The position numbers and the translations under genes are program-made. A DNA stretch of 64,000 bases from Marmoricola sp. URHB0036 (lineage in GTDB: Bacteria; Actinomycetota; Actinomycetes; Propionibacteriales; Nocardioidaceae): positions 372,001 to 436,000 of the forward strand of contig NZ_AUEP01000004.1 of NCBI RefSeq assembly GCF_000426045.1, in the 5' to 3' direction. The first letter of the stretch is position 1. Every line of letters starts with the position of its first letter. The notes under the pieces are model-generated. The model had not been told where the DNA came from. It was given only the letters and a program-made list of their open reading frames with translations, and did no database searches. Shown here piece after piece: positions 19,273 through 28,141 of the stretch.

Positions 19273-20724
19273 TCAGGCGCTGAGCTGCTGCTCGGCCCGG
19301 GGCGGGGTGTCGCTGGGGGTGTCGCTGGGGGTGTCGCTGGTGGCTGGTGAGACAGGGAGGTGGGCGCCGCCTCGGTAGCGGGCGCCGTGGTGCCGTTCGG
19401 GGAGGCGGTCGCCCTCGCCGAAGATCCGGTCGCGCAGGGACTCGCTCTCGTCGTACGACGCACGCAGCCGGCCACGCTCGCGCAGCACGGGCACGACGAG
19501 CTCGATGAAGTCCCTGGCCGTGTCGAAGGTGTGGTACTGGAGGAGGTTGATGCCGTCGATGCCGACCTCGTCGAGCCAGTGCTCGATCGCGTCTGCCGCC
19601 TGGTCCGGCGTACCGACGACGAACAGGGGGTGCCGCGCGAGGTCACCGAAGCCGGCCAGGAAGTCACCGACGGTCTGGCCCGCCTCGACCTGGCGGAACC
19701 GCCCGACCCGACCCTCGGCCAGGTCCGGCACCTGGTCGACCGGCAGGTCGGCGGGGTAGCTGGTGGGGTCCCACGGCAGCCCGGCATGGGCGAGGTAGCC
19801 CTCCGGGTCGGACAGCTCCTGGAACCGGGCCAGCTTGGCCCGCGCCTCTTCCTCGGTCGGTGCCACGATCACGCCGGCCGTGGTGATCACCTTGAGGTCG
19901 CCGGGTGCCCGGCCGGCGTCGACGGCCGCCTGCTTCAGCGACGCGGCCGTCCGCTTCACGAACTCCTCGCTCGGGCCGCCGGTGAAGACGACCTCGGCGT
20001 GCTTGCCCGCGAAGGCGGTCCCCGCCGCCGACTGCGTGGCGGTGAACAGCACCGGTGTGCGCTGCCGGCTCGGCGAGGGAAGGTGCGGGCCCTCGACCTT
20101 GAAGTAGGTGCCCTCGTGGAAGATCGGGCGGATCTTCGCCGGGTCGGCGAAAACGTTGTTCTCGTGGTCGGCCGTGATCGCGTCGTCGTCCCAGGACCCC
20201 TCCCACAGCTTGTAGAGCACGTCGAGGTACTCGTCGGCCCGCTCGAACCGGTTGTCGTGCTCGACCTCGCCCTCCAGGCCGTGGTTGCGCGCGGCGTTGG
20301 GCAGGTACGACGTGACGATGTTCCAGCCCACGCGGCCCTTGGTCAGGTGGTCGAGGGTCGAGGCGCGACGAGCCCACGCGAACGGCGGCTCGTAGGTCGT
20401 GGAGAAGGTGATCCCGAAGCCGAGGTGCTTGGTCACCGCGGCCATGGCGGGTACGACGACCGACGGGTCGTTGTTCGGGATCTGCAGTCCCTGCCGGATC
20501 GCGGTGTCAGCCGATCCCCGGAAGGTGTCGTAGGTGCCCACCACGTCGGCCAGGAACACCGCGTCGAAGCCGCCGGACTCCAGCAGCGTGGCCAGCTCCG
20601 TCCAGTACTCGATGTCGTTGAACCGCTCGCGGTTGTTGTCGGGAAGGCGCCACAGGCCGTGGGTGATGTGGCTGACGCAGTTCATCTCGAACAGGTTCAG
20701 CACCAGTCTCTTGGGCTCGGTCAC
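19273..20724 (-). CDS. FMN-dependent monooxygenase of the NtaA/SnaA/DszA family (first of two)
   Basis: The 483-residue protein belongs to the bacterial luciferase-like superfamily. Family features are the N-terminal LNLFEMNCVSHITHGLWR, FDAVFLADVVGTYD, the FMN-site segment STLDHLTKGRVGWNIVTSYLPNAARN, RADEYLDVLYKLWEGSWDDDA and RQRTPVLFTATQSAAGTAFAGKHAEVVFTG. These enzymes use FMNH2 from a separate reductase and oxygen to cleave C-S or C-N bonds. Sulfur use is inferred from the leader peptide, LysR gene and metXY nearby; nitrilotriacetate/EDTA-like substrates are the alternative. The GTG at 20724 overlaps the stop of the second monooxygenase gene. The C-terminus carries a Ser-Asp-Thr-Pro repeat encoded by a 12-bp tandem repeat. 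Confidence 0.9.
   Translation of the reverse strand: MTEPKRLVLNLFEMNCVSHITHGLWRLPDNNRERFNDIEYWTELATLLESGGFDAVFLADVVGTYDTFRGSADTAIRQGLQIPNNDPSVVVPAMAAVTKHLGFGITFSTTYEPPFAWARRASTLDHLTKGRVGWNIVTSYLPNAARNHGLEGEVEHDNRFERADEYLDVLYKLWEGSWDDDAITADHENNVFADPAKIRPIFHEGTYFKVEGPHLPSPSRQRTPVLFTATQSAAGTAFAGKHAEVVFTGGPSEEFVKRTAASLKQAAVDAGRAPGDLKVITTAGVIVAPTEEEARAKLARFQELSDPEGYLAHAGLPWDPTSYPADLPVDQVPDLAEGRVGRFRQVEAGQTVGDFLAGFGDLARHPLFVVGTPDQAADAIEHWLDEVGIDGINLLQYHTFDTARDFIELVVPVLRERGRLRASYDESESLRDRIFGEGDRLPERHHGARYRGGAHLPVSPATSDTPSDTPSDTPPRAEQQLSA
19304..19339. repeat. three perfect tandem copies of a 12-bp unit in the monooxygenase 3' end
   Basis: GGGGTGTCGCTG occurs three times without a gap (19304-19315, 19316-19327, 19328-19339). 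It encodes a repeated Ser-Asp-Thr-Pro in the dispensable-looking C-terminal tail. Copy number may vary by slippage without breaking the frame. Confidence 0.85.
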
Positions 20725-22115
20725 AACGCGCTCGCCACCCGGACGGGAGCGAACGCGCCGCGATAGCGCGCGGCCTGGTGTCGCTCGGGCAACCGGTCCC
20801 CCTGGCCGAAGAGCTTGTGGCGCAGCGTCCCCTCGGCGTACTCCGTCTGCGCCAGGCCGCGTGCCTGGAGCACCGGGACGACCTGGTCGACGAAGTCCTC
20901 ATAGCTGCCGGGGATCTCGGCGTTGACCAGGTTGATGCCGTCGACCCCGGCGGCCTGCCACTTCGCGAGCCGGTCGGCGATCTGCTCCGGCGTACCGACG
21001 ATGCGGCTGTTGGTCGCGGTGTAGTGGGCGACGTCGCGCAGGGTGGCCGGCCGGTCGGTCACGAGGTCCTTGATCCAGCCGACGATCGACTGGACCCCTT
21101 CGGTCCGCAGCTCGCCGATCGGCTTGTCGAGATCCTCGTGGCCGAAGTCGATGCCGACCGCCCCGGACATGTGCGAGAGCTGGGCGTCGTAGTCGATCCA
21201 CTCGTCGAGCTCGGCCGCGATCCGCTTGGCCTCTTCCTCGGTGGAGCCCGGGACGACGTACAGGCCCTGGAAGAACTTGAGGTCCTCCGCGCGACGACCG
21301 TGCTGCACCGCGCGTGAGCGGATGTCGCTGGTGTCGCGGGCAGCCGAGTCGAGGTTGGGCGACTGGATGAACACGGCCTCGGCGTTCTTCGCAGCGAACG
21401 TGCGCCCTGCCTCGGACGCGCCGGCCTGGAAGAGGAGGGGGGTGCGCTGCGGTGACGGGGTGACGAGATGAGGGCCCTCGACGCGGTAGCGCGGCCCCTC
21501 ATGGTTGATCCGGTGGACCTTGTCGTAGTCGGCGTGGATGCCGGTCACCGGGTCCTGGAGCAGTGCGTCCTCCTCCCACGACCCTTCCCACAGCTTGTAG
21601 GTGACGTCGACGTACTCGTCGGCCCAGGCGTAGCGCTCGTCGTGCGCGGTGAGGCCCTCCAGGCCGAAGTTGCGCGAGGCGTTGGGCAGGTAGTTGGTGA
21701 CGATGTTCCAGGCGATCCGGCCCTTGCTGGCGTGGTCCAGGGTGGAGATCCGCCGGGCGAAGTTGAACGGGTGCTCCTGCAGGATCGAGGCGGTGAAGGC
21801 GATGCCGAGGTGCTCGGTGGCATACGCGATCGCGCTGGCCAGCACCGACGGGTCGTTGCTCGGGACCTGCAGCCCGGCTTCGAAGTACTTCCGCTCGTCC
21901 CCGCGGTACGGCGCGTAGAGCCCGACGACGTCGGCGAAGAAGATCGCGTCGAACTTGCCGCGCTCCAGCGTCTTCGCAAGATCGACCCAGTGGTCGAGAC
22001 TGTTGAAGTCGGTCTGCCGGGCGTGGGGGCGGCGCCAGGTTCCCTGGACGATGTGGCCGGTCGTGTTCATCACGAACGCGGCGAAGTGGAGGGGGCGGGG
22101 AGGGTTCTGGGGCAT
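20721..22115 (-). CDS. FMN-dependent monooxygenase of the NtaA/SnaA/DszA family (second), first gene of the operon
   Basis: This 464-residue paralogue of the next gene shows the same motifs: FAAFVMNTTGHIVQGTWRRP, FDAIFFADVVGLYAPY, STLDHASKGRIAWNIVTNYLPNASRN, YVDVTYKLWEGSWEEDALL and RTPLLFQAGASEAGRTFAAKNAEAVFI. It should oxygenate an imported sulfur compound with FMNH2. I chose the ATG at 22115 (MPQNPPRP), which has GGAG 7 nt upstream; the open frame to 22172 has no ribosome site. That GGAG lies in one arm of a 9-bp stem, and a Cys-containing leader peptide is encoded 81 bp upstream. Translation or transcription is therefore probably tuned to cysteine supply. The two paralogues differ enough that they may handle successive steps or different substrates. 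Confidence 0.9.
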   Translation of the reverse strand: MPQNPPRPLHFAAFVMNTTGHIVQGTWRRPHARQTDFNSLDHWVDLAKTLERGKFDAIFFADVVGLYAPYRGDERKYFEAGLQVPSNDPSVLASAIAYATEHLGIAFTASILQEHPFNFARRISTLDHASKGRIAWNIVTNYLPNASRNFGLEGLTAHDERYAWADEYVDVTYKLWEGSWEEDALLQDPVTGIHADYDKVHRINHEGPRYRVEGPHLVTPSPQRTPLLFQAGASEAGRTFAAKNAEAVFIQSPNLDSAARDTSDIRSRAVQHGRRAEDLKFFQGLYVVPGSTEEEAKRIAAELDEWIDYDAQLSHMSGAVGIDFGHEDLDKPIGELRTEGVQSIVGWIKDLVTDRPATLRDVAHYTATNSRIVGTPEQIADRLAKWQAAGVDGINLVNAEIPGSYEDFVDQVVPVLQARGLAQTEYAEGTLRHKLFGQGDRLPERHQAARYRGAFAPVRVASAL

Positions 22116-22122
22116 GGCGTGT

Positions 22123-22187
22123 CTCCGGGCTGTCGGGGTCTCTCGGGGGACTGGGCGGATCACCAACCGCATCCGGAGAGCCCGGAG
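22123..22187 (-). promoter_or_regulatory. attenuator-like stem that masks the monooxygenase ribosome site
   Basis: On the minus strand CTCCGGGCT (22187-22179) pairs perfectly with AGCCCGGAG (22131-22123). A further CTC/GAG-type pairing lies inside. The distal arm contains the GGAG that serves the ATG at 22115. The proximal arm starts 8 bp after the leader peptide stop, so ribosomes on the leader could decide whether the stem forms. Confidence 0.55.
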
Positions 22188-22195
22188 CGATCAGC

Positions 22196-22282
22196 TCAGT
22201 GACACAGACAGCTGGCGGTCAGGAGGAGGTCGACGTGCAGCCGCACCGTGGTGCGGAACAGCAGCAGCTGGTTGACGGGCAT
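22196..22282 (-). CDS. 28-residue Cys-containing leader peptide of the sulfur monooxygenase operon
   Basis: A very strong ribosome site, AAGGAGGTGGT at 22299-22289, stands 6 nt before the ATG at 22282. The peptide reads MPVNQLLLF, RTTVRLHVDLLL, TASCLCH. The RLHVDLL core and the closing Cys-x-Cys match the short leader peptides that precede sulfur-assimilation genes in many actinobacteria. Both cysteine codons are TGT, the rarer one in a genome of this GC content, which would make the ribosome sensitive to charged tRNA-Cys. The stop at 22198 is 81 bp before the monooxygenase start, with a stem masking that gene's ribosome site in between. The likely role is regulation in cis, with no function for the peptide itself. 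It is too short for usual gene callers. Confidence 0.82.
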   Translation of the reverse strand: MPVNQLLLFRTTVRLHVDLLLTASCLCH

Positions 22283-22337
22283 GTGACGACCACCTCCTTG
22301 CGTAGACGAGTCGTGGGGGTTCCTGTGTCATGAAAGA

Positions 22338-22358
22338 CGATAGACTTAGTAGATATTG
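22338..22358. promoter_or_regulatory. AT-rich candidate operator in the monooxygenase/lysR divergent promoter
   Basis: The plus strand reads GATAGACTTAGTAGATATTG here. The TTAGTAGA core resembles the flavin reductase promoter word. It lies about 60 bp before the leader peptide on one side and about 70 bp before the lysR start on the other, a position suitable for control of both. Confidence 0.4.
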
Positions 22359-22426
22359 AAACCCGAATCGGACGCGCTCGGTTCTGCCGATCACCCCGTC
22401 GTGTCCACCGATCACCTGGAGCCCTG

Positions 22427-23377
22427 ATGCGCATCGAGCAGCTTCAGTACGTCGCCGCGGTCACCCAGTACGGATCACTGCGTCGTGCCAGCGAGCACCT
22501 GCACATCTCCCAGCCGGCCCTCAGCGAGTCGCTGACCAAGCTGGAGAAGGAGCTCGGGGTGACCCTGCTCGACCGGCGGCGCTCGGGCACCCGGATCAGC
22601 GCCACCGGACGCGAGCTCCTCCAACACATCGTCGAGGTGCTCGACGCCGCCGAGCGGCTGCGCGCTGCCGCCGGCGACCAGACCGCAGCCGTGCGGGTGA
22701 TGCGGATCGGTACCGTCAACGCCGGCACGTCCACCCTGTTGCTGCCGGCGATCCAGGCCTTCCAGCAGCGGTTCCCCGGCGTCAGCGTCGAGGTCCGCAA
22801 CCTGCAGCATGCCGAGATCCACCGGGACCTGCTCGAGGGCACACTCGACATCGGGATCATCAACCTGCTCGGCGGCGACGACGTGTCCCCCGAGCTCGCC
22901 GGCATCGAGCTCCTGCAGGGCAGCCCGGTGGCGGTGCTGTCCTGCGACCATCCCCTCGTCGAGCAGGCCGAGGTCACGGTCGACGACCTCCGGGCCGAGC
23001 GGTTCGTCGCGATGCGGTCGGGCTACCTGATGTACCGGTTCGCCCACCGGCTCTTCGGCGCCCAGCTGCCCGCCAGCTGGCACAGCACCGACGGTGCCGA
23101 GATGGGCAAGGTGATGGTCGCCGATGGGCTCGGCGTCACCGTGCTCCCCGACTACAGCGTCGCCGGCGACCCGCTCGAGCGCGTCGGACTGATCACCACC
23201 CGGCCGATCGCCGGCGACCGCACGGTGGTGCGGCTGAGCCTGCAGCACCGGCGTCAGCGGGTGATCCCCGACGCGGTCGCGGCCCTCATCGCGGAGTTCC
23301 AGCTCCGCGCACAGCAGCTGAGGTCGGAACGAGCCGGGCGCGACGAGGACCTCGGGCGCACGGCGCAGGTCGGGTGA
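22427..23377 (+). CDS. LysR-type transcriptional regulator, probable control of the sulfur operon
   Basis: The 316-residue protein has the N-terminal winged helix-turn-helix of LysR regulators: MRIEQLQYVAAVTQYGSLRRASEHLHISQPALSESLTKLEKELG. The co-inducer domain follows from about residue 90 (RIGTVNAGTSTLLLPAIQAF ... LDIGIINLLGG ... VADGLGVTVLPDYS). LysR proteins often sense sulfur status or an aromatic ligand and act on the divergent promoter. Here that is the monooxygenase operon with its leader peptide. The ATG at 22427 is 311 bp from the monooxygenase start. The last 20 or so residues are Arg-rich and lie outside the family fold. Confidence 0.92.
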   Translation: MRIEQLQYVAAVTQYGSLRRASEHLHISQPALSESLTKLEKELGVTLLDRRRSGTRISATGRELLQHIVEVLDAAERLRAAAGDQTAAVRVMRIGTVNAGTSTLLLPAIQAFQQRFPGVSVEVRNLQHAEIHRDLLEGTLDIGIINLLGGDDVSPELAGIELLQGSPVAVLSCDHPLVEQAEVTVDDLRAERFVAMRSGYLMYRFAHRLFGAQLPASWHSTDGAEMGKVMVADGLGVTVLPDYSVAGDPLERVGLITTRPIAGDRTVVRLSLQHRRQRVIPDAVAALIAEFQLRAQQLRSERAGRDEDLGRTAQVG

Positions 23378-23420
23378 CGCGTGCCGGACCCCCCACAGCG
23401 CCTCGAGCGAGCAGCGGGCG

Positions 23421-23678
23421 AAGTACGCGGAGTACGCGGAGGCGCGCCTCGCCCGGACGACCACACCGCAGGGTCCCGGCCGGTTGATGTTCGCACCCGA
23501 CCTGGTCGGCACGTCAGACCAGATCGCCGAGGAGCTCTAGGCGCACGCCGGGTTCCGTGAGGTCGACGAGGTCGCCTTCGCGCTGCCCTTCTCCTTCGAG
23601 CACGCCGACTACGTCCAGATCCGCACCGACATCGCGACCAGGCTCGGGCCTGCCCTCGGCTGGCGACCGGGCTGCTAA
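23421..23678 (+). pseudogene. remnant C-terminus of a luciferase-like (LLM) flavin monooxygenase
   Basis: Read in one frame this stretch gives AKYAEYAEARLAR, then LMFAPDLVGTSDQIAEEL, an in-frame TAG at 23538-23540, AHAGFREVDEVAFALPF, ADYVQIRTDIATRLGP and a TAA at 23676-23678. The VGT..QIAEEL and DEVAFALPF patterns are those of the C-terminal barrel of LLM-class oxidoreductases, a family different from the two NtaA-type genes nearby. The N-terminal two thirds are missing and the remainder is broken by a stop, so this is a decayed gene between lysR and the convergent flavoprotein monooxygenase. Confidence 0.75.
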
Positions 23679-24943
23679 CGACCACCGGCCAGGTGACCGG
23701 CGAGGTGGTCGATCACCTCGCGCGCGTCGTCCTCGATGCCGTGGATGAAGGTCGACTTGCGCCGCCGCAGCACCGGCAGGCCGAGCACGTACACACCCGG
23801 ACTGTCGACGACCCCGCCGTCGTGGATCAGATGGCCCTTGGCGTCGAGCACCGGCACCTCCAACCAGGAGTAGTCGGGCCGGTAGCCGGTCGCCCAGAGG
23901 ACAGAGCTGATCTCGCCGCTGTTCAGGTCCAGCTGCCACCGCGTCGACGACGGCACCCGCGTGGGCTCGGGCCGCTCGGGCGGGTCGAGCTCGGCGTCGA
24001 GCAGCTGCTCTCGTGCCCAGTCGTCGAAGGTGCCGAGCAGGCGCTGCATCTTGAGGTCCGCGAGCGAGAACACGTTGCGCAGCCCGCCGGAGAACAACGC
24101 GGTGCCGTCGCGCACGGTCGCCCAGCGACCCACGAGCTCGACACCGAGGTCCTGCAGGGCGTTCAGGTCGAGCGTGGCTCGTTCGGGGGTCCCGACCAGC
24201 TGGGGCGAGGGCAGCCGCCGGGCCCGTTCGAGGTCGTCGACCTCGTCGTACCGCTCGCTCCAGACCCCGGAGGCATCCATCCACCAGAGCACGTCGCGGC
24301 CGCGGTAGGTGCGCGGCAGGCGGACGTGCTCCCCCACTGACAGCGTCACCGGCCGACCCGATCGACGGATCTCCGCTGCGAGCTGGACACCGGTCGCCGA
24401 CGCCCCCACGACCAGGACGCCACCGTCGGGCAGCTGCTCGGGACTCCGGTAGTCGAAGGTGGTCAGCTGCTCGACCGAGGCCGGCACCGCGTCACTGAAC
24501 CCCGGCACCGCGGGCACGTTGCAGGCACCGGTCGCGATCACCAGCGCGCGACAGCGGAGGTCACCCCGACTGGTCGTCACGGCGTACCCGTCGTCGGTAC
24601 GACGAACCGACGTGACGTTGGTGGCGGTGCGCACGGGCGCGTCGGCGAGCTTGGCGAAGCGCTCGATGAGCTCGACCACCTCGGCCATGCTCAGGTAGCC
24701 GTCCGGGTCCGGGCCCTCGTAGCGAAGGCCCGGAAGACGGGTCTGCCAGTTGGGGGTGAGCAGCCGCAGCGAGTCCCAGCGTTCGTGCCGCCAGGAGTTC
24801 GCCACGTCGCCGCGCTCGAGCACGACGTGGTCGATCGACCGCTCGCTGAGGACCTGGCTGGCGGCCAGTCCCGCGTGGCCGGCACCGATGACGACGGTGG
24901 AAACCCGCTCGGGGGCCTCCTGTCGCGACACGTCCTCAGACAA
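23675..24943 (-). CDS. flavin-containing monooxygenase-like NAD(P)/FAD protein
   Basis: The 422-residue protein has an FAD-binding GAGHAG motif near residue 20, then LERGDVANSWRHERWDSLRLLTPNW, which is typical of the CzcO/YUCCA-like branch of class B monooxygenases. A central ATGACNVPAVPGF segment and a second dinucleotide motif GASATG for NADPH follow, with the closing ATG motif as VLWATGYRPDY. Members oxygenate nitrogen, sulfur or ketone compounds. It overlaps the upstream OsmC gene by 8 bp and is probably translated with it. The TTG at 24943 is the start that fits best with the conserved VVIGAGHAG segment, but it has no good ribosome site. Its place between the monooxygenase operon and metX suggests a role in sulfur oxidation; the substrate is unknown. 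Confidence 0.83.
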   Translation of the reverse strand: MSEDVSRQEAPERVSTVVIGAGHAGLAASQVLSERSIDHVVLERGDVANSWRHERWDSLRLLTPNWQTRLPGLRYEGPDPDGYLSMAEVVELIERFAKLADAPVRTATNVTSVRRTDDGYAVTTSRGDLRCRALVIATGACNVPAVPGFSDAVPASVEQLTTFDYRSPEQLPDGGVLVVGASATGVQLAAEIRRSGRPVTLSVGEHVRLPRTYRGRDVLWWMDASGVWSERYDEVDDLERARRLPSPQLVGTPERATLDLNALQDLGVELVGRWATVRDGTALFSGGLRNVFSLADLKMQRLLGTFDDWAREQLLDAELDPPERPEPTRVPSSTRWQLDLNSGEISSVLWATGYRPDYSWLEVPVLDAKGHLIHDGGVVDSPGVYVLGLPVLRRRKSTFIHGIEDDAREVIDHLAGHLAGGR

Positions 24944-25484
24944 CCGCGACAGTCACGTCCGTGGGGTTGGTGAGGGCGTCGAACACGGCCGAGCGCTTCT
25001 GCGACTGGGCGACCAGGGCCTCGATCTCCTCCGGCGACGCATCGGCGTCGATGGAGAAGTTCACCTTGATGTCGTTGAAGCCGTTGCGCACGTCGCTGTC
25101 GGCTCCGAGGATCCCGCGGATGTCGTGGTTGCCCTCGATGGTCGCCTTCACCGAGCGCAGCTGGATGCCCCGGTTCTGCGCCACCGAGGCGACCCCGGCA
25201 GTCAGGCAGCTGGTCAGCCCGACGAGGAGGTACTCGATCGGCGTGATGGCGTCGTCGGGTGCCGCGAAGACCTCGGGGTGGTCGGCGTCCAGCACCGTCT
25301 CGGCCTTGTGGTTCTGCTCCGCGCCGAGCCCGAAGAAGTTCTGGATCTTCGTGGTGGTGTGCACGCCGTTCTGCCACTCCGAGGTGGCCTTCCAGGTGAA
25401 CTGGGCGGCTTCTGGCGCGCCCTTCAAGACCTCGCGTGCATCGAGCAGCGCCTGGACGTTGACGCCGTTGTCGGTGGTGGTCAT
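24936..25484 (-). CDS. OsmC family protein
   Basis: This 182-residue protein has the OsmC fold: an N-terminal helix and strand (QFTWKATSEWQNG), PDDAITPIEYLLVGLTSCLTAGVASVAQ with the conserved Cys of the central helix, and RSVKATIEGNHDIRGILG. The second cysteine expected in thiol-peroxidase members is not seen (the C-terminal segment is DALTNPTDVTV), so it may not act as a classic peroxidase. OsmC-like proteins of this branch recur in sulfur-starvation gene sets. It is divergent from metX across 88 bp that include an AT-rich candidate operator. The monooxygenase gene downstream overlaps it. Confidence 0.88.
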   Translation of the reverse strand: MTTTDNGVNVQALLDAREVLKGAPEAAQFTWKATSEWQNGVHTTTKIQNFFGLGAEQNHKAETVLDADHPEVFAAPDDAITPIEYLLVGLTSCLTAGVASVAQNRGIQLRSVKATIEGNHDIRGILGADSDVRNGFNDIKVNFSIDADASPEEIEALVAQSQKRSAVFDALTNPTDVTVAVV

Positions 25485-25572: not shown

Positions 25573-26784
25573 ATGGCGGCCTCCTCCACGAGCATGACGG
25601 GCTCGGTCGGAAGTGTCGAGACGCAGTACGTCGACCTGCCGGAGCCGGTGCGCCTCGACTGCGGGCGAGACCTCCACCCGGTCCGGGTCGCCTACGAGAC
25701 CTACGGCGCCCTCTCCCCCGAGCGCGACAACGTCATCCTGGTCTGCCACGCGCTCAGCGGCGACGCGCATGCCGCTGGGGTCTCGAAGACCCCGCCCGAG
25801 GAGAGCACCCGCGACGGGTTCGCCGCCGAGGAGCGCGATGGGGCGGCTCCCAAGGGACTGGGCTGGTGGGACGGGATGATCGGCCCCGGCAAGGCGTTCG
25901 ACACCGACCGCTACTTCGTGGTCTCGACCAACCTGCTCGGCGGTTGCAAGGGCACGACGGGGCCGTCCTCGATCGACCCGGCGACGGGAGCGCCGTACGG
26001 CGCGGACTTCCCGGTGATCACGGTCGCCGACATGGTGCGCACCGAGCGCGCCTTCCTCGACGTCCTCGGGATCGAGCGACTGGCGGCGGTGGCCGGCGGC
26101 TCGCTCGGCGGCATGCAGGCGCTCGAGTGGTCGATCCTCCATCCCGACCAGGTCGACGCCGTCGTCGCGATCGCCAGCACGCACGCGCTGCACCCTCAGG
26201 GCATGGCCTGGAACGCCATCGCGAGGGAGTCGATCCTGCGCGACCCGGCCTGGCAGGACGGGCAGTACTACGGCACCGATCGCCGGCCCGACTCCGGCAT
26301 GGGCGTGGCGCGCATGGTCGGCCACGTGACCTACCTGTCGGCGCCTGCGCTGGACGACAAGTTCGGCCGCCGGCTGCAGTTCGCCGACGACATCCGCTAC
26401 ACGGTCACCGAGCCCGAGTTCGAGGTGGAGAGCTACCTCGACCACCAGGCCGACTCGTTCGTGAAGCGGTTCGACGCCAACACCTACCTCTACACCTCGC
26501 GCGCGTTGACCTACTTCGACCTCGCCCGCCAGCACGGCGGCGGATCGCTCGCCCGGGCCTTCGAGCACGTCACCGCCCGCACGCTGCTGATCGCGTTCAG
26601 CTCCGACTGGCTCTACCCGCCGTCGGCGTCCCGCGAGATCGACTCCGCGCTCCGCTCCCTCGGCAAACCGGTCGAGCTGCACGTGATCGACGCGCCCTAC
26701 GGCCACGACTGCTTCCTGCTCGAGGAAGCCCGACAGACTCCACTGATCCGCAGCTTCCTGACCGCGGACTGGGCGAGCAGATGA
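25573..26784 (+). CDS. metX: homoserine O-acyltransferase (MetX), methionine synthesis
   Basis: The 403-residue alpha/beta hydrolase has the full MetX pattern: LVCHALSGDAH, WWDGMIGPGKAFDTDRYFVVSTNLLGGCKGTTGPSS, and the nucleophile elbow GGSLGGMQALEW with Ser177. Asp345 in FSSDWLYPP and His378 in YGHDCFL complete the triad. It transfers an acetyl (possibly succinyl) group from CoA to homoserine, giving the substrate of MetY encoded 22 bp downstream. The first ATG (25573) is chosen; another in-frame ATG lies at 25594. Direct sulfhydrylation by MetX and MetY lets the cell put sulfide released by the neighbouring monooxygenases straight into homocysteine. Confidence 0.93.
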   Translation: MAASSTSMTGSVGSVETQYVDLPEPVRLDCGRDLHPVRVAYETYGALSPERDNVILVCHALSGDAHAAGVSKTPPEESTRDGFAAEERDGAAPKGLGWWDGMIGPGKAFDTDRYFVVSTNLLGGCKGTTGPSSIDPATGAPYGADFPVITVADMVRTERAFLDVLGIERLAAVAGGSLGGMQALEWSILHPDQVDAVVAIASTHALHPQGMAWNAIARESILRDPAWQDGQYYGTDRRPDSGMGVARMVGHVTYLSAPALDDKFGRRLQFADDIRYTVTEPEFEVESYLDHQADSFVKRFDANTYLYTSRALTYFDLARQHGGGSLARAFEHVTARTLLIAFSSDWLYPPSASREIDSALRSLGKPVELHVIDAPYGHDCFLLEEARQTPLIRSFLTADWASR

Positions 26785-26806
26785 CACCACGGAAGAAGAG
26801 GCCCTC

Positions 26807-28141
26807 GTGACCGACCAACCCGCTCGACCCGAGGACGACCACGTCTTCGGGTTCGAGACCCGACAGCTGCACGCCGGGCAACGGCCGGACCCGAACACCG
26901 GTGCCCGGGCGGTGCCGATCTTCCAGACGACCAGCTATGTCTTCGAGGACCCGGAGTCGGCGGCGGCGTACTTCAACCTCCAGGAGTACGGCAACACCTA
27001 CTCGCGCATCATGAACCCCACGGTCGCGGTCTTCGAGGAGCGGGTCGCGAACCTCGAAGGGGGTGCGGGAGCCGTCGCGTTCGCCAGCGGGCTGGCCGCG
27101 CAGGCCGCCGCCCTGTTCACGCTGCTGGAGCCGGGCGACCACATCGTCTCCTCCTCGGCGCTGTACGGCGGGACGGTGAACCAGTTCAAGCACCTCCTGC
27201 GCAAGCTGAGCATCGAGGTCTCGTGGGTCGACCCCGACGACCCGGACGCCTGGCGCCGGGCCGTCAAGCCGAACACCAAGGCCTTCTTCGGCGAGACGAT
27301 CGGCAACCCCGGCGGCAACGTGCTGGACCTCGAGGCCCTCTCGACGATCGCGCACGAGCACGACCTGCCGCTGGTCGTGGACAACACCTTCGCCACGCCG
27401 TACCTCTGCCGGCCCATCGAGTGGGGCGCCGACATCGTCATCCACTCCGCGACCAAGTTCATCGGCGGCCACGGCACCAGCATCGGCGGCGTCGTCGTCG
27501 AGGCCGGCACGTTCGACTGGTCCAACGGCCGGTTCCCCGTGGTCGCGGACCCGTCACCGGCGTACCACGGGCTGCAGTTCCACGAGACGTTCGGGACCTA
27601 CGGCTACCTGATGAAGCTGCGGGCAGAGACGCTGCGCGACCTGGGCGCCGCCCTCTCGCCGTTCAACGCATTCCTGCTCCTGCAGGGCCTGGAGACGCTG
27701 TCGCTGCGGATGGACCGGCACGTCACCAACGCGCGGGCGGTGGCGGAGTTCCTCGAGTCGCACGAGCTGGCCTCGAAGGTGACCTACCCGGACCTCCCCG
27801 GCAGCAAGTACCGCTCGCTGGTCGACAAGTACCTGCCGCTCGGTGCCGGTGCGGTCTTCTCGTTCGACGCGGCTGGTGGTCGGGCCGGCGGTCTCGGGCT
27901 CATCGGCGGCGTGACCCTCTGGTCGCACCTCGCGAACGTGGGGGACGCCAAGAGCCTGATCATCCACCCGGCCAGCACCACCCACCGGCAGCTGAGCGAC
28001 GAGGAGCTGCGAGCGGCAGGCGTCGGCCCGGGGACGGTGCGGCTCTCGGTCGGCCTCGAGTCGCCCGACGACCTGGTCTGGGACCTCCAGCAGGGATTCG
28101 CCGACGTCGCCGCAGCGGCCGGGAAGGCGGGTGTCTCATGA
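26807..28141 (+). CDS. metY: O-acetylhomoserine sulfhydrylase (MetY), PLP enzyme
   Basis: The 444-residue protein belongs to the Cys/Met PLP-dependent family and has the longer size of O-acetylhomoserine sulfhydrylases rather than cystathionine enzymes. Visible motifs are [39 protein letters not shown], and the PLP lysine Lys217 in [11 protein letters not shown]. It condenses O-acylhomoserine with sulfide to give homocysteine in the cytoplasm. The GTG at 26807 follows a GGAAGAAGAGG ribosome site. Its stop overlaps the ATG of the CoA-binding protein gene. Confidence 0.94.

Follow-up and report, generated by a model that had tools for sequence, protein, structure and literature searches.

In Mycobacterium smegmatis, short ORFs ahead of cysteine genes are reportedly leaderless and polycysteine, and ribosomes stalled on them are said to block structures that hide the ribosome site. 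A first-pass annotation of the DNA studied here (a 64,000-nt stretch of Marmoricola sp. URHB0036, referred to below as the window) had proposed a scheme close to this model, a cysteine-responsive switch acting on a monooxygenase operon. The Cys-rich leaders of M. smegmatis are also taken up in the excerpted text of PMC13236596 and PMC9094748, both citing Canestrari et al. 2020, and the excerpt of PMC13236596 describes the cysteine genes of this species as translation-attenuated with reference to the same work. The excerpted part of PMC1262725 describes leaders rich in Cys that precede cys operons, with no conserved terminators.

Comparison with these and related leaders makes it likely that a 28-codon ORF upstream of the monooxygenase gene in the window acts in cis as a cysteine-responsive leader of the RxHVDL...C type, at whose last TGT codon a scarcity of charged tRNA-Cys would pause the ribosome and raise downstream expression. 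Literature searches returned no paper on such a leader before this monooxygenase.

Locus layout and distribution of the leader

The leader ORF and the genes around it are arranged as follows:

22299-22293, minus strand: Shine-Dalgarno sequence of the leader, AAGGAGG
22282-22196, minus strand: leader ORF, MPVNQLLLFRTTVRLHVDLLLTASCLCH, 28 codons plus TGA
22210-22208, minus strand: Cys25 codon, TGT, offset +7 from the motif Asp (TGT or TGC in orthologs)
22204-22202, minus strand: Cys27 codon, TGT, offset +9 from the motif Asp, putative sensor codon
20721..22115, minus strand: first gene after the leader, NtaA/DmoA-family FMN-dependent monooxygenase (TIGR03860, 515.5 bits, cut-off 279.7)
19273..20724, minus strand: second NtaA/DmoA-family monooxygenase (TIGR03860, 469.6 bits, over cut-off)
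22337..22350, minus strand: promoter-like box ACTAAGTCTATCGT, its core conserved in the alignment of nine leader-bearing upstream regions
22427..23377, plus strand: divergent LysR-type regulator (PF03466 and PF00126)

The ORF, its Shine-Dalgarno sequence, the RLHVDLL core and the two TGT codons at its end are thus all present as first annotated. The leader stop lies 80 nt upstream of the monooxygenase ATG (22115-22113). Both monooxygenase genes are followed on the same strand by genes for a peptide/nickel-type ABC transporter (a substrate-binding protein, two permeases and an ATPase with two matched stretches) and for an SfnB-like acyl-CoA-dehydrogenase-type protein (TIGR04022, E 1.9e-80, below cut-off). 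From gene order and strand, we infer that the monooxygenase, transporter and SfnB-like genes form one operon. Judged by sequence family, sulfur-metabolism genes lie directly downstream of the leader, and the operon probably serves sulfur scavenging or sulfur acquisition. More sulfur genes occur in the neighbourhood, namely a metX-like homoserine O-acetyltransferase and an O-acetylhomoserine sulfhydrylase at 25780-28141. Two further observations concern the same region: an OsmC-domain protein is encoded at 24936-25484, where the NCBIfam model for an OsmC-related (seleno)protein matches below its cut-off, and the frame at 23382-23678, which reads GRLMFAPDLVGTSDQIAEEL, an internal stop and then AHAGFREVDEVAFALPFSFEHADYVQI, resembles by eye the end of a decayed flavin monooxygenase gene.

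TATCGT within the promoter-like box may be a -10 element; a consensus scan gave no sigma-70 match. The gap between leader and LysR gene (22337-22426) holds a conserved ACTAAGTCTATNGT box and repeated GTGATCGG words, common to orthologous loci including some without a leader, and these may be promoter and LysR sites. Across the whole window, Rfam models at their gathering scores matched only a tRNA.

We then compared the upstream regions of monooxygenase orthologs, keeping the best 80 of 177 relatives. Among those found, 14 distinct loci besides the window are close orthologs with 83-91% identity (L077 only over residues 7-338); the duplicates L088 (of L008), L089 (of L009), L095 (of L010) and L098 (of L012) were left out of this count. 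The search for homologous leaders before such operons, proposed in the first-pass annotation, proved productive: eight of the 14 carry one (L007, L008, L009, L010, L011, L012, L015 and L096), and apart from L096 these come from records of Nocardioides/Marmoricola, Frankia, Sphaerisporangium and Streptosporangiaceae. No leader was seen upstream of the other six (L013, L014, L051, L067, L077 and L097), so it is dispensable. Because the motif scans missed the leaders of L007 and L008, which were found by eye, leader hits among more distant loci are a lower bound. The promoter-like box is clear before the leader-lacking L051 and L067 and degenerate before L013 and L016, the latter a 69% relative. 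At L051 the gene begins within ~40 nt of the box, and at L013 and L016 it follows the degenerate box within about 30-40 nt, as if the leader module were absent from all three. Plasmid relatives of the monooxygenase numbered 329 records, every one below 60% identity.

All nine leaders of the monooxygenase set have a GGAG- or AGGAG-type site on their 5' side, and the peptide core is conserved across genera. Within its 15 codons, pairwise differences among the nine amount to 64, 96 and 243 at codon positions 1, 2 and 3, respectively, a predominance of third-position changes expected for a translated peptide under selection.

We scored the peptides against family models. The window ORF has the RxHVDL core and a Cys about nine residues after the Asp, near the stop, that characterize the NCBIfam family NF042934 ('putative leader peptide', cis_reg_atten), and its peptide matches this model with E 2.4e-4 and 20.7 bits, short of the cut-off of 27. 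Seven of the eight orthologous leaders exceed that cut-off (L015 by 0.1 bit) and L008 falls below it, some ortholog peptides having been scored in slightly altered form; these seven also hit two models named after M. smegmatis, Ms5788A and Ms4527A, with scores below cut-off, and the window peptide matched neither of these two at E 0.01. Of the genomes of 118 relatives, 61 have an NF042934 match at E 0.001; in a sample of 394 genomes from the class the number is 232 at E 1e-4, and neither limit gives a match in any of the 14 control genomes. The window's own genome contains two further leader-like ORFs, L002 (18.9 bits) and L003 (16.3 bits), and it counts against the leader reading that these two and the window peptide all score under the family cut-off. 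At the loose limit that admits L002 and L003, 10 of the 14 control genomes also match, so that the two rest on the motif seen by eye and on the genes behind them, a nitrite/sulfite reductase after L002 and a DUF4395 protein (Pfam) after L003. The gene following the leader was scanned with Pfam at eight leader loci, the remaining downstream genes being read by eye only. At other leader loci the scan gave an NMT1-type binding protein (L103), the sodium:dicarboxylate symporter family (L112), rhodanese (L121), TauE/SafE (L126), an ABC permease (L129) and acyl-CoA-dehydrogenase domains, of which one scores under cut-off (L136).

Codon use at the putative sensor cysteine

We examined cysteine codons in leader loci L101-L130, L131-L225 and L226-L294. 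A first set of 127 loci yielded 114 leaders, 12 lying outside the motif expression and one not being leader-like (L118 is the same leader as L009); a class-wide draw of 69 loci yielded 63, six being unmatched, four of which have a readable RRVHMDL leader outside the expression. The first set comprises 81 distinct core peptides and the second 60 distinct peptides. The Cys at +9 from the motif Asp is encoded by TGT in 114/114 leaders of the first set, in 9/9 of the monooxygenase set, window included, and in 62/63 of the class-wide draw (the exception, L278, has TGC), counts whose effective number is lowered by kinship because related loci are not independent. The loci were chosen by protein profile, which can introduce no bias of TGT over TGC, although the +9 spacing is partly imposed by the profile. 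In the longest downstream ORFs, picked by rule, TGT accounts for 28 of 166 Cys codons and TGC for the other 138.

Other leader cysteines follow different patterns. In the first set, offset +2 has TGC 27 times and TGT twice (of 29), offset +7 has TGT 11 times and TGC three times, offset +10 has TGT in 16/16, and offsets +11 and +12 combined have TGC in 7/7. The class draw gave TGC 18 and TGT 5 at +7, and TGT 6 and TGC 5 at +10, with the Asp misplaced in some rows. Codons ending in G or C make up 83% of the other leader codons and 86% of those in the longest downstream ORFs, and among the codons tabulated, those of the three commonest residues per position, the third base is fixed at no other core position. 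The Cys cluster at the C-terminus thus prefers TGT, and at +9 this codon is nearly invariant. Literature searches found no paper on a fixed TGT sensor codon.

Translation of the leader and a response to cysteine are likely. Sensing of cysteine by ribosomes stalling at the Cys codons appears well supported by comparison, through the likeness to a known family, the core conserved across genera and the TGT at the last Cys of all nine monooxygenase-set leaders. UGU is read by tRNA-Cys(GCA) via wobble, and a slower UGU codon would sharpen the stall. The +9 Cys keeps UGU even where other leader cysteines are UGC, so sensing may be tied to this one codon. The conserved RxHVDLxR core would be superfluous in a sensor of tRNA supply alone, and combined with the fixed UGU it suggests a hybrid sensor, a speculative and rather unlikely arrangement in which the nascent core in the exit tunnel would prime the stall at a slow UGU placed at a fixed distance.

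In the leader mechanism we favour, scarcity of charged tRNA-Cys would make the ribosome pause at the last TGT codon (UGU, wobble pairing), the monooxygenase and transporter genes would be expressed more strongly, and organosulfur compounds would be scavenged. With ample cysteine the ribosome would finish and leave, and expression would be attenuated. The output might be a structure other than the 9-bp stem discussed below that hides the ribosome site of the gene, or untranslated C-rich RNA that would let Rho terminate unless a paused ribosome shields it.

Candidate outputs and competing explanations

We looked for signals between leader and gene. No terminator-like site (0) was found at 21900-22600 of the window, which speaks against a classical transcription attenuator. 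The 60 nt after the leader stop contain 43% C and 26.5% G, the C-rich, G-poor composition that a Rho site would have, with C exceeding G in 108/114 loci (38/114 before the leader). Such a stretch could be a Rho loading site whose start is shielded by a ribosome paused at the Cys codons, so that termination is prevented, and the excerpted part of PMC1262725 does propose Rho for cys leaders, yet calls the prediction rather weak. The mean difference C minus G after the leader is 0.168, above the 0.067 of 24 GC-rich control gaps (p 1.5e-4; 0.061 over all 33 gaps), but the leaders are not independent and the control set is small, drawn from other loci with rule-called genes. The difference is 0.135 in 61 class loci (p 0.009) and 0.159 in the monooxygenase set (p 0.04). 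On the other side, stretches further downstream, within the downstream region, also have C above G in 81/114, the window spacer has the smallest C excess of the nine (a mere 0.06-0.07, with 0.11 in its own gene), and a paused ribosome would shield only the first nucleotides. We regard Rho shielding as possible but doubtful.

The second candidate is the output put forward in the first-pass annotation, in which the monooxygenase GGAG is sequestered in a 9-bp stem until stalling on the TGT codons places a ribosome over the proximal arm and so releases the GGAG:

22187-22179, minus strand: proximal arm, CUCCGGGCU / CTCCGGGCT
22131-22123, minus strand: distal arm, AGCCCGGAG, with the monooxygenase GGAG (22126-22123)

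The stem itself is exactly as annotated. Its arms are perfectly complementary over nine Watson-Crick pairs, with the GGAG ending the distal arm, and its length exceeds chance, since after shuffling the spacer with its dinucleotides preserved just 4 of 1000 sequences gave a helix of at least nine pairs over the Shine-Dalgarno sequence. Taken as a whole, the region has no unusual amount of structure (z -0.79; 42/200 shuffles fold at least as well), and Shine-Dalgarno pairing is no greater than with shuffled spacers. In the ribosome-free ensemble the named stem has a mean pair probability of 0.00 and the GGAG is 0.25 unpaired.

The geometry argues against the proposed opening. A ribosome covers ~12-13 nt past the first base of its A-site codon, and the distance to the start of the proximal arm is 17 nt when counted from the first base of the last Cys codon and 11 nt from that of the stop, so that a ribosome at Cys27 misses the arm and one at the stop just touches it. 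We folded the region with the ribosome footprint masked, setting its leading edge at +10, +12, +14 and +16. With the ribosome at Cys27, the stem probability was 0.73, 0.73, 0.73 and 0.86, respectively, and the GGAG was 0.01-0.02 unpaired. At Cys25 the corresponding values were 0.15, 0.04, 0.08 and 0.82 for the stem and 0.13, 0.07, 0.07 and 0.01 for the unpaired GGAG; at the stop they were 0.88, 0.17, 0.00 and 0.00 for the stem, with the GGAG 0.01-0.05 unpaired. In these models, stalling does not expose the GGAG, and a ribosome at Cys27 lets the stem close, the reverse of what had been claimed. The stretch from GGAG to ATG does become more open, its mean unpaired probability being 0.36 in the absence of a ribosome, 0.54-0.57 when one stands at Cys27, 0.55-0.64 for Cys25 and also 0.40-0.60 for the stop.

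The same picture was obtained across the nine leader regions, where the accessibility of the GGAG (AGGA in L015) gained at most 0.01 in the stalled over the free state and was clearly lower when stalled in the window, L010 and L096. We extended the accessibility test to 98 of the 114 leader loci of the first codon set, in which the unpaired probability of the Shine-Dalgarno sequence was 0.270 in the free state, 0.345 when a ribosome was placed at the sensor codon and 0.352 when it stood at the stop. Stalled exceeded free by a mean of +0.075 (p 3e-4; 28 loci up by more than 0.1, six down), but there was no difference between stall and stop (mean -0.007, p 0.49), nor was the rise from the free state larger than with shuffled spacers (p 0.21). 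With start codons chosen by rule this test is weak, and it lends no stall-specific support.

Conservation of the stem is likewise scant. L008 is the sole relative keeping part of it, with seven pairs despite a diverged loop, a length that 9/100 shuffles also reach. The longest helix over the Shine-Dalgarno sequence has seven pairs in L015 (11/100 shuffles) and 4-6 pairs in the other six regions (38-96/100 shuffles). The spacers are too diverged for alignment as a set, and alifold run on the leader stretch of the nine leaders found no conserved RNA structure (-0.94 and -4.31 kcal/mol for two stretches), nor any conserved structure with compensating changes of the kind a translation attenuator would show. 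A structure inside the leader, such as its Shine-Dalgarno sequence pairing with the HVDL codons, was also rejected, being present in a single fold and absent from the nine-sequence consensus. The excerpt of PMC13236596 gives a similar rationale for cysteine genes of mycobacteria. On geometry, masked-ribosome folding and lack of conservation we nevertheless reject the 9-bp stem as the switch and judge this output quite unlikely. Of the cysteine switch first proposed for the monooxygenase operon, the Cys leader and its sensing hold up by comparison, and the stem as its output does not.

Very improbable, finally, is that the ORF is here a functionless relic kept with a transferred operon, for which the six leaderless orthologs and the departure of the sub-cut-off window peptide from the ortholog consensus (RRHVDLLRTASCLCR versus RLHVDLLLTASCLCH) would speak, and against which stand the intact frame, the strong Shine-Dalgarno sequence, the retention of both TGT codons and the mostly third-position differences among orthologs.

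Relation to known cysteine leaders

The cysteine-responsive leader that we favour shares with NF042934 leaders the RxHVDL core, a Cys near the stop and a position upstream of sulfur genes; the window copy differs in its longer N-terminus, in a Leu in place of Arg after DLL and in a His after the last Cys. With the Cys-rich leaders of M. smegmatis (Ms4527A/Ms5788A) it has in common Cys codons near the stop of a short ORF that lies ahead of cysteine or sulfur genes, and a presumed stalling of the ribosome. Unlike the polycysteine sORFs of that species, it has no Cys run but a C-x-C tail, its two Cys codons being split by a Leu codon. The conserved Shine-Dalgarno sequence would argue against a leaderless start, and the target here is a monooxygenase/ABC-transporter gene set.

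The tnaC leader differs in that it senses free tryptophan through its nascent chain. It and the leader described here may share an output in which a paused ribosome sits beside a Rho site, the tnaC-type shielding named in the excerpted part of PMC1262725. The cys-operon and cbs leaders of Mycobacterium, Propionibacterium acnes and Bifidobacterium described there resemble the present one in having Cys near the stop and no conserved terminator hairpin, but they contain runs of Cys codons and precede other downstream genes.

The leader behaves as a module that some loci have upstream of the monooxygenase and others (L013, L016 and L051) lack, which offers a natural comparison, and the near-invariant TGT codon is the part most worth following. 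From its sequence, the leader is probably a known actinobacterial device set here on another target, a monooxygenase/transporter gene set of organosulfur type that would join the actinobacterial genes apparently read out by ribosome pausing on cysteine codons.
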